Origin: Aliicoccus persicus
GTDB lineage: Bacteria > Bacillota > Bacilli > Staphylococcales > Salinicoccaceae
Assembly: GCF_900110815.1 (NCBI RefSeq)
Contig: NZ_FOIT01000001.1
Coordinates: forward strand, 626,307-690,306
Direction of reading: 5' to 3'
Length of the DNA stretch: 64,000 bases
Part shown: piece by piece, positions 55,638 through 59,198 of the stretch
Position numbering within the stretch: position 1 is the stretch's first letter
Layout of the letters: each line of letters starts with the position of its first letter
Program-made: the position numbers and the translations under genes
Notes under the pieces: model-generated
What the model was told of the DNA's origin: nothing
Seen by the model: the letters and a program-made list of their open reading frames with translations, nothing else
Databases searched by the model: none

Positions 55638-56099
55638 TTATTTTTCATCATTGTTATTCTGGCTTGCATAAGCTTTTTGTCTATCTTGACGAATTTTCCA
55701 CTTATCAAACAATTCCATTGCAACGTTAGACCATTGAACCACTTGTGAAATCTGATCTTCGTTTTGTGAAATATTTGTCGTGATAGAATGCGTTACTTTT
55801 TCAACAGAACTGTTTAAGTTATTCACTGTGCTACCGATGCCACTTACAGCTTCAACAACACCGTTTAACTTCTCAGATTTACCTTGGAAATCTTCCGCCA
55901 AACGATTCGTCTTGTGTAACAGATCCGTCGTTTCACGCGTGATACCTTGTACCTGTCCTTCCACACCGTTTAATGTTTTTGCGATGTGATCTAAATTTTT
56001 CTTAACTGATAGAAGTAGCATCACTAATCCCACACATAAAATGAGGAAAGCAAGTGCAGCTACACCAGCTGAAATGTATAAAATAATTTCCCAATCCAT
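55638..56099 (-). CDS. ytxG: DUF948 protein, YtxG-like
   Basis: A 153-residue protein with one N-terminal membrane helix (about 6-30) and a long helical part of methyl-accepting-protein type (KNLDHIAKTLNGVEGQVQGITRETTDLLHKTNRLAEDFQGK). This is DUF948; B. subtilis YtxG, also downstream of murC, is the reference. It is in the general stress regulon there. AGGTATTATT lies ahead of the ATG. The 66-bp gap to murC leaves room for a separate promoter. Confidence 0.88.
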   Translation of the reverse strand: MDWEIILYISAGVAALAFLILCVGLVMLLLSVKKNLDHIAKTLNGVEGQVQGITRETTDLLHKTNRLAEDFQGKSEKLNGVVEAVSGIGSTVNNLNSSVEKVTHSITTNISQNEDQISQVVQWSNVAMELFDKWKIRQDRQKAYASQNNNDEK

Positions 56100-56165: not shown

Positions 56166-57464
56166 TTAAATCACACTTTCAGTAAAAGCTTTTTCATATT
56201 TCTGGATATCGCCTGCACCCATGAAGATAATGACAGCATCTTTATACTGATGTAATGTCGACATATCATCCTCTTTTAAGAGCTGAGCGTTTTTCGTAAT
56301 CTTCACGAGATCCTCGCTCGTTAACATGCCACCTTCTTCGCGTGCTGATCCAAATATATCTAAAATATACACATCGTCTGACTCTGCGAGTGCCTCTGCA
56401 AATTCTTTTAAAAATGCTTCGGTTCTAGAGAATGTATGCGGTTGAAACACAGATACAATGTGCTTATCCGGATATTTTTTTCGGGCTGTTTCCAGCGTTG
56501 CTTTGATTTCAGTCGGGTGATGTGCATAGTCATCGACTAAAACAAGATCATCCACATGTGTTTCAGTGAAGCGACGTTTAACGCCTTTATATGTCATAAA
56601 CGCAGCCTTTGTGTTTTCTACATTTAAGTCTTCCAAATAACACACCGTAATCACCGCCAGGGCATTAAGTACATGGTGGTCACCAAACAGTGGAATTGTA
56701 AATGTTTCATAAAACTCACCTTTAATATGGACGTCGAATACAGTCCCTTCTGTCGTGACTGATACATTTGATGCAACGACGTCAAACCGTTCATCAAAGC
56801 CGTATAACCATACATCCTGTGAAAGATTCATCGCTTCTACGTGTGCATCTCCACCATAGGCGACGACAGTCTTCGATTGATTTGCCATCTGAGTGAATGC
56901 ATCGATGACATCTTGTAAATCTTTAAAATAATCTGGGTGATCAAAATCAATATTCGTAATGATTGCATAATCTGGGTGGTAACTTAAAAAGTGACGCTTA
57001 TATTCACATGACTCATAGACAAAGTGTGTGCTTAAATCAACACCCACACCAGTGCCGTCACCAATTAAATATGTCGTCTTACTATTGCCATTCATCACAT
57101 GTGACAACAGGCCTGTCGTCGATGTTTTACCGTGGGCACCACTGACTCCGATGGACACATATTCTTTCATAAATTCCGCTAAAAACTTATGGTATCGAAT
57201 GACTTCGAGGTTCAGTTCACGCGCGCGTTTTATCTCCATGTGTTCATCGTTAAAAGCATTGCCTGCAATGTAAACATAGCCTTCTTTTATATTTTCAGCA
57301 TCAAAGGGGAGAATCGTAATGTTCTTCTCACGCAATTGGAATTCTGTGAAAACGACACTTTCAATATCTGAACCTTGTACTTCATGTCCAAGTCCATGTA
57401 ATATTTGTGCAAGTGCGCTCATTCCAGCCCCTTTTATACCGATAAAATGAAATTTCTTCTTCAT
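56166..57464 (-). CDS. murC: UDP-N-acetylmuramate-L-alanine ligase
   Basis: Adds the first amino acid of the peptidoglycan stem. It has 432 residues (S. aureus 437). The N-terminal UDP-binding motif is [16 protein letters not shown], the ATP site [15 protein letters not shown] (residues ~108-122), then [12 protein letters not shown] and the C-terminal [14 protein letters not shown]. It starts 15 bp after the SftA-like gene, in the same transcription unit, as in B. subtilis. Confidence 0.97.
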
Positions 57465-57479
57465 TTCTTTCCACCATCT

Positions 57480-59198
57480 TTATGTCAGATTTGCTTCTTT
57501 AATATGCGTGATTACGTCTTTAAGTGTGCTCTGTGTTACCGTACCAAGCGTTATGCGTGTCGGTTTAGATGTTGTTGGTAACTGTATCAAACAATCCGCG
57601 TAATATTGTGATAACTCTTCTGCACCATTCATGATCCGATGTTGTGGATCTAAAAATGTAATACGTGTTTGCATCAATCTAAGTAGTTCAAAACGTAAAT
57701 CATAAGAAATATCTGATTGTTTCACGATGCAATGAATACCGTATGCCTTACCCTTTTGTAACAACTGTTGTAGTGCACTGTACGCATATTTATTTTTTTC
57801 TTTTAAAATTGTATGTAAGTCATCGATGACAACAACGATGATACTTTTTCTTAGATGCGGGCTCAATCGTTGATTTAGACTTTGAATGTTGCGAACATGC
57901 ACACGCCTAAACTGATTTTGTCGCTCAATGAGCTCGGCTAATATAGAATCAAACGCGTCATCATCAGTGATTTCTTTATGTGTATCAAATGAATATGGTA
58001 AATCCACATATTGTTGATAACGTCTTTTTTCAGTGATAAAATGCGTTTGCACTTCAAGTGGTGTGTGGTTCATCATCAATGATAATAAAATACTATTTAT
58101 GATTAACTTCGTTGAATCGACACGACCCCCATAGATTAACATATGGCCAGCTTTTGTCAGTTGGAAGGAGCACATCTTATCTTCAATTGTTTTACCAATT
58201 GCGACTTTAAAGTCATTTTTTCTCATCTTCAAACTACTCGTATTGAACAAAGTACTGAATGTAATGATGTTCTTTTTTGTCAATGGAACTTCTAGATTGA
58301 TAATACCTGAGTTTAAGTTCTCTGTCGTAATTCGAACATGCATGTCCTCTAGATATGGTTTCAATAATGTCTGTAATTGATTGAGTTGACCGATTCTTAA
58401 ATTTACTTTTACCTTTAACTTATAACTTCCAAACATACCATTTGAAACATAATTCAATATATCTATCGGAATATTGATATGATTAAAGGCATTGATAATA
58501 CGCTCTGTTATTTTAGGGTCCTCAAGATCATAATTCGTGTTTTGGGGCGCGCCTAATAAGTAGAGCGATGGGTATGAAAAACGTGGTCCAACGCGCTTTT
58601 TTTCAGACGTTGTTTGCTTTTTTTGGACTGGCTTTTGTACATCTGATTTTGAAGTCTTTTGTTCGTTAGAAACATTGATTGGGCTGAGTGGTGTAATTAA
58701 GCTGAGTTGCTCTGTCCCTTTCGTATGCTTACCTTTTTCGGTATCTAAAAACACTGCAGATGTTGGACTCGATGCCAAGCGTTGATTATGGAGCAGACGC
58801 TGCCTTTCCTTTACTGCTTGTTTCTTTTTTTCTTTGCGCACACGTTCTCTTTTAATCTCTTCAACGATTGAAGAGCGATAGCCACCATCTCTTGGTGGCT
58901 GATTTGTTAATTCTGCGGGTGTTCTGTTTGGTTTTTTCGTACCATGAATTGCTGAAGGAATATCGCGGGCTTTTCGAATGGTATAACTCGAAGACTTATT
59001 TTCAACATAAGTCTGTTTTGTTGACTTACGATTTTCACGCTGCATTAAGCGACCCGTACTCTCACTTTGTGATTGCGCATCACTTGGTGTCAAATTCGGA
59101 TCTGCTTTTAATTTTTCATAATCAAATACAGTCTGTGACTTATCTGTTTTCTTACTGTACATCTCTTCAGATGTACGTGGTCTTCTCTGTCTACTCAT
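57480..59198 (-). CDS. Degenerate SftA/FtsK-like protein with broken Walker motifs
   Basis: The gene holds the position of sftA (ytpS) between ytpR and murC. The 572-residue product has a long basic, low-complexity N-terminus (about 1-200), a recognisable FtsK alpha domain (about 205-320, YPSLYLLGAPQN), and a beta (ATPase) domain that aligns along its length with SftA. Walker A is GGRVDSTKL instead of GATGSGKS: Lys remains but the last Gly and Ser/Thr are lost. Walker B is VVVIDDL (usual VVVIDEL), LATQRPS became IVKQSDI, and the GGAEKLLGxGDM segment is decayed. There is no gamma winged helix. The frame is intact over 572 codons, so it is not a simple pseudogene; ATP-driven DNA pumping is unlikely. 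B. subtilis SftA is 952 residues. Confidence 0.8.
   Translation of the reverse strand: MSRQRRPRTSEEMYSKKTDKSQTVFDYEKLKADPNLTPSDAQSQSESTGRLMQRENRKSTKQTYVENKSSSYTIRKARDIPSAIHGTKKPNRTPAELTNQPPRDGGYRSSIVEEIKRERVRKEKKKQAVKERQRLLHNQRLASSPTSAVFLDTEKGKHTKGTEQLSLITPLSPINVSNEQKTSKSDVQKPVQKKQTTSEKKRVGPRFSYPSLYLLGAPQNTNYDLEDPKITERIINAFNHINIPIDILNYVSNGMFGSYKLKVKVNLRIGQLNQLQTLLKPYLEDMHVRITTENLNSGIINLEVPLTKKNIITFSTLFNTSSLKMRKNDFKVAIGKTIEDKMCSFQLTKAGHMLIYGGRVDSTKLIINSILLSLMMNHTPLEVQTHFITEKRRYQQYVDLPYSFDTHKEITDDDAFDSILAELIERQNQFRRVHVRNIQSLNQRLSPHLRKSIIVVVIDDLHTILKEKNKYAYSALQQLLQKGKAYGIHCIVKQSDISYDLRFELLRLMQTRITFLDPQHRIMNGAEELSQYYADCLIQLPTTSKPTRITLGTVTQSTLKDVITHIKEANLT

Follow-up and report, generated by a model that had tools for sequence, protein, structure and literature searches.

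FtsK and SftA have been studied as ATP-driven DNA pumps. What, then, is the role of a gene that stands in the place of sftA in Aliicoccus persicus and encodes a protein in which the pump appears to have been erased? The gene lies within a 64,000-nucleotide stretch of the genome (the window), and a first-pass annotation had described it as a pseudo-translocase that selection may keep for another job. The gene and its surroundings are as follows.

57480..59198, minus strand: pseudo-SftA/FtsK gene, an open frame with an ATG start, 572 aa
59214..59798, minus strand: ytpR, the upstream neighbour (NF045760, 201 bits)
56166..57464, minus strand: murC, the downstream neighbour (TIGR01082, 394 bits)
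55638..56099, minus strand: ytxG-like (DUF948-type) gene, conserved beside murC and named from position and synteny

As first described, the gene reads through: an ORF check found no stops or frameshifts inside 57480..59198 on the minus strand. It begins 15 bases past ytpR, with a G-rich ribosome-binding site rated good, and ends 15 bases before murC; in a promoter and terminator scan, promoters were no more numerous than in shuffles. The order ytpP-ytpR-gene-murC-ytxG recurs at every named Salinicoccaceae locus that has both flanks and is found in Staphylococcaceae too. That the gene occupies the slot of sftA between ytpR and murC is borne out by the NF045760 and TIGR01082 matches of its neighbours and by its SftA-type grouping in the tree, where the pseudo clade joins Staphylococcaceae FtsK with a support of 100 and SpoIIIE forms a separate clade. 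On these sequence grounds, the gene is an orthologue of SftA (the FtsK of staphylococci). Weak NCBIfam matches to EssC/EccC raised the possibility of a type VII secretion ATPase, which was rejected, as the scores are far under the cut-offs and both synteny and tree fit SftA. If B. subtilis SftA is taken to be about 950 aa long, the 572-aa window protein has about 60% of that length, divided as follows.

58587..59198, minus strand: N-terminal linker (residues 1-204), for the most part modelled as disordered
58269..58586, minus strand: alpha domain, residues 205-310, with a partial FtsK_alpha match and a structure alignment to the FtsK motor
57480..58268, minus strand: beta (RecA-like motor) domain, residues 311-572 (PF01580, 39 bits), catalytically erased

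The alpha and beta domains of SftA type claimed for this protein were recovered by Pfam and by structural matching to FtsK motors. The Pfam FtsK_SpoIIIE profile matches residues 321-492 at 39-40 bits (246 bits for SpoIIIE of the same genome), and FtsK_alpha gives a sub-threshold partial match of 19.7 bits at residues 210-305. In an AlphaFold2 model, the alpha-beta region is confidently predicted and the linker is disordered apart from a helix at residues 110-140. Comparison of this model with FtsK motor domains, proposed as a check in the first-pass annotation, returned the motors of Pseudomonas aeruginosa and Escherichia coli as the top PDB matches (Z 36-37 over 357-363 residues at 20-21% identity; for 6t8b_A, Z 37.3 and rmsd 2.9 over 363 aligned residues), and Foldseek matches reached E values down to 2e-25. 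The FtsK alpha-beta fold is thus predicted to be retained. The C-terminal end of the protein coincides with the point where the gamma domain would begin, and this domain is indeed gone: PF09397 occurs once in the window genome, within SpoIIIE. A Pfam search of the 2.06-Mb genome found two FtsK-family genes, the pseudo-SftA/FtsK gene and the one for SpoIIIE (827 aa), the latter being the second, intact motor for which a search had been suggested.

The loss of the motor is family-wide, older and wider than one genome. Salinicoccaceae are staphylococcus-like, salt-loving cocci, and kin searches and named loci place the window among them. In a sample of 33 Salinicoccaceae genomes from six genera (including Jeotgalicoccus, Salinicoccus, Lacicoccus, Nosocomiicoccus, and Phocicoccus), the short pseudo-SftA/FtsK was present in all 33, with full-length copies of 532-632 aa; one further copy, of 490 aa, is cut short by a contig end, and another is split over two contig ends. 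The split copy belongs to Nosocomiicoccus massiliensis (loci L107 and L109), probably reflecting an assembly gap. Local decay or a sequencing artefact was rejected as an explanation, given the same state in 33 genomes. Each Salinicoccaceae genome has one full gamma domain, in the SpoIIIE frame, except for one incomplete genome that has none; one genome gave a second gamma match, a sub-threshold fragment. The Walker A, Walker B, and ATQRPS motifs of SpoIIIE are intact in all 29 genomes inspected. The Staphylococcaceae listed all have a long orthologue, with frames of about 866-1357 aa; its motifs are intact in 3/3 examined, and alpha, beta, and gamma domains are present in both proteins scanned with Pfam. 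Among 399 Bacilli genomes, no relative of the pseudo clade was found outside Salinicoccaceae at E <= 1e-72, a cut-off that could miss SftA proteins degenerated independently elsewhere. An order-wide search gave a single FtsK-family match per genome in the remaining families of the order, and none in one genome, from which sftA seems to have been lost there altogether. The small-genome families f2 and f4 are among those with the single match. Absence of sftA from the small-genome families seems to represent another route by which the SftA motor was lost.

The pseudo clade has a single long stem of 1.85 substitutions per site, against 0.2-0.3 for active FtsKs measured from the same node, and the simplest reading is one motor loss at the root of Salinicoccaceae followed by rapid change. 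What was lost can be followed residue by residue in a motif table of 32 aligned copies (31 full-length and the contig-truncated one), the roles of the residues being known from the structure and simulations of P. aeruginosa FtsK (PMC7321959, PMC9410874).

58101..58136, minus strand: Walker A relic, residues 355-366, containing GGRVDSTKL, placed by motif alignment
57819..57824, minus strand: Walker B relic at residues 459-460, where Asp-Asp stands in place of Asp-Glu, with the first Asp present in 32/32
57891..57893, minus strand: Arg436, aligned with the trans-acting exchange residue R548 of P. aeruginosa FtsK, Arg in 32/32
57747..57749, minus strand: Lys484, aligned with the arginine finger R620 of P. 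aeruginosa FtsK, Lys in 32/32

All the motif details offered as signs of a dead ATPase were confirmed in the window copy: the P-loop reads GGRVDSTKL (against GATGSGKSV in Staphylococcus FtsK), Walker B has DD for DE, and the LATQRPS and GGAEKLLGxGDM segments are eroded. Intact Walker motifs in sister orthologues, which would have pointed to recent decay, were not seen: GxTGSGKS is present in none of the 32 copies, one of which has a stray Lys, and across the clade the sequence of this segment drifts freely and its length differs somewhat. The Walker B Glu is kept in two copies and replaced in 30, the phosphosensor Thr-Gln pair (T630, Q631) is lost from all 32, and the arginine-finger position, Arg in every active homologue compared, is Lys in all 32 pseudo copies. 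This Lys is fixed amid an otherwise drifting ATP site. From these motifs, ATPase activity is presumably absent, and we consider it highly probable that the gene encodes a conserved orthologue of FtsK/SftA with no working ATPase. It could be argued that the motor is altered rather than dead and binds nucleotide in a non-canonical manner, given that Asp459 is invariant and is followed by a second acidic residue in 30/32 copies (Asp in 28, Glu in 2), but a P-loop segment that varies freely and the disappearance of both phosphosensor and arginine finger make this very unlikely.

The DNA-contacting residues have fared little better. R661 of DNA loop I is deleted and K643 of loop II is lost in 32/32 copies, and R632 in the DNA-contact loops is kept in 14/32 and is Asp in the window copy. 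DNA binding at the septum, one of the jobs first proposed for the protein, has become less likely, since the loop-I contact has been deleted from every one of the 32 copies. A static binder or anchor that holds DNA at the septum without pumping would make use of the FtsK fold and of the linker helix at residues 110-140, which is basic, yet the losses in loops I and II, the patchy retention of R632, and the absence of the gamma domain leave such a role distinctly unlikely, if a shade less so than an altered motor.

Is the protein then simply decaying? Within genera, dN/dS is 0.055-0.146 in 21 of 22 pairs, far from the value near 1 that would have spoken for decay; the exception (0.228) is a pair of near-identical sequences with a dS of 0.03. 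Pooled over nine independent pairs, the ratio is 0.156 for the linker, 0.085 for the alpha domain, and 0.076 for the beta domain, so that constraint is tightest in the dead motor domain. In simulations of neutral change at 0.1 event per site, a mean of seven stops arose, and the frame stayed open in 0/300 trials. The idea of a pseudogene that is still open by chance draws on the window copy, the most divergent of the set, which keeps 77% of the columns invariant in other genera (92-98% for the others). Its root-to-tip distance of 0.86 nevertheless falls inside the family range of 0.68-1.26, and the presence of the gene in 33/33 genomes, the dN/dS of 0.06-0.15 in relatives, and the simulated loss of every neutral frame render this reading extremely unlikely; for Salinicoccaceae as a family, it is already contradicted. 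The window species is the only genome of its genus in the sample, and purifying selection was measured in its relatives, from which we infer that it acts on the window copy as well; with only 77% of the columns kept, some relaxation is possible there. The proposal of a pseudo-translocase kept by selection is therefore supported by the missing P-loops of all 32 copies and the low dN/dS of the relatives.

The pattern of constraint also indicates what kind of change took place. At 172 alpha-beta positions that are fixed in SpoIIIE and FtsK, the pseudo clade keeps 25, varies at 119, has switched 23 to another near-fixed residue (>=90%), and has deleted 5. A further 39 positions are newly invariant (>=31/32) and carry residues absent from every SpoIIIE or FtsK compared. 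Taken together, the kept, switched, and varying positions and the newly invariant ones look like a change of function and not like decay.

One such function, akin to the inhibition of an active FtsK that was among the jobs first proposed, would be that of a regulatory subunit of SpoIIIE, an inactive protein that joins or caps SpoIIIE rings and so tunes or times the motor. In FtsK rings, R548 and R620 reach into the ATP site of the neighbouring subunit (PMC9410874, PMC7321959). The corresponding Arg436 and Lys484 are fixed in 32/32 pseudo copies even as the protein's own ATP pocket varies freely, and the whole beta fold is strongly constrained. On the other side, no copy has an Arg at the finger position, the loop I that lines the DNA pore has been deleted, and with only 25 of the 172 SpoIIIE/FtsK-fixed positions kept and 119 varying, there is no obvious sign that a common ring interface has survived. 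We regard this as the main rival to the reading that we prefer, and as rather unlikely.

On balance, and with modest confidence, we favour the view that the protein is a septal adaptor, a non-motor, ancient pseudo-translocase. In the ancestor of Salinicoccaceae, the gamma domain and ATPase site of SftA would have disappeared together with some of its hold on DNA, after which the protein would have been kept. SpoIIIE, the remaining FtsK-family motor with intact motifs, could clear the chromosome, and with SpoIIIE doing the DNA work the sftA gene would have been free to drop its motor and keep a septal role. The short conserved motifs of the flexible linker may be docking sites for divisome or export partners, and the alpha-beta fold, rigid and carrying newly fixed residues, may act as a platform for oligomerisation or partner binding.

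Work on better-known relatives makes such a role plausible. In Staphylococcus aureus, FtsK joins Trigger Factor and the amidase Sle1 in a complex at the septum, shields Sle1 from ClpXP, and controls the amount and place of Sle1 (PMC12755775, PMC12272431), while either FtsK or SpoIIIE suffices for chromosome segregation (PMC9733580). SftA of B. subtilis binds the Z-ring with the help of SepF and FtsA (PMC11790237). The inherited job of the Salinicoccaceae protein might plausibly be to deliver a Sle1-type amidase, along with Trigger Factor, to the septum so that it can be exported, as S. aureus FtsK does; we infer for it a septal location, partners, oligomerisation, and a client of this type. 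Of the first proposal that the gene encodes a scaffold for MurC-linked division, the scaffold or adaptor part is favoured by the septal link in S. aureus, whereas a direct link to MurC is not its basis.

Five boxes are common to the linkers of Salinicoccaceae and staphylococcal FtsK: FRFP, KAxxVPSAIxGTKK, SxIVEEIxRERxxK, SPFNVVMTPxDKK, and KRxGP, the last of which sits just before the alpha domain. The window linker carries KARDIPSAIHGTKK (residues 76-89) and the helix 110-140 with SxIVEEIxRER, both in common with Staphylococcaceae FtsK, while its FRFP (first) and SPFNVVMTPxDKK (fourth) boxes are partly eroded. A profile of Salinicoccaceae linkers matched three staphylococcal linkers with E values of 2.8e-10, 2.7e-5, and, for a weak third, a full E of 2.1; none of the shuffled controls listed had a positive full score. 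Our guess is that the linker is the part of FtsK that binds Trigger Factor and Sle1. Against the adaptor reading, constraint is stronger on the beta domain than on the linker, which may therefore not be the main functional part.

Possible partners are encoded in the window genome, which has Trigger Factor, SepF, and a single CHAP protein.

L111:1423-3006 (G000:C6:23687-25267): sole CHAP protein of the window genome, with a signal peptide, three LysM domains, and a CHAP domain

We take this LysM-LysM-LysM-CHAP layout to be that of Sle1. The protein also has a long Glu-Ala-Arg repeat linker, and its record is partly masked as N. Similar proteins occur across Salinicoccaceae. Because LysM/CHAP-related proteins, Trigger Factor, and SepF are widespread, finding them here fits an adaptor but does not discriminate between readings.

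Probably, then, the whole family carries an ancient SftA/FtsK pseudo-translocase, a non-catalytic division protein that partners either active SpoIIIE or the export machinery of the septum, and evolution has separated the motor and septal jobs of FtsK. Our literature search found no paper pairing FtsK with Salinicoccus and none describing such a pseudo-FtsK. In Salinicoccaceae, the pump was erased, apparently once and long ago, and the protein was kept, which makes it a natural separation-of-function mutant that reveals which parts of FtsK are important for something other than pumping. SpoIIIE is predicted to be the remaining FtsK-family DNA translocase of these bacteria, and the Salinicoccaceae copies of the SftA orthologue should not be annotated as DNA translocases.

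Set beside known systems, the protein is closest to SftA (YtpS) of Bacillus and to Staphylococcaceae FtsK, with which it has the slot, orthology by tree, and the alpha and beta fold in common and, in the case of Staphylococcaceae FtsK, the linker motifs; it differs from them in lacking the ATPase motifs, loop I, and the gamma domain and in its length (532-632 against about 866-1357 aa). SpoIIIE has the same motor fold but is intact in the same genomes (29/29 inspected) and belongs to a separate clade. The extra ATPase domains of EssC/EccC in type VII secretion are also FtsK-folded, and some of them have degenerate ATP sites, but their family profiles score weakly on the window protein, and they belong to different genes that serve membrane secretion, whereas the pseudo-FtsK is a DNA translocase orthologue in its native slot. 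By analogy, the Trigger Factor-Sle1 role of S. aureus FtsK may be the non-motor job that the two proteins have in common, and their linker motifs are conserved; S. aureus FtsK differs in that it is also a DNA translocase.
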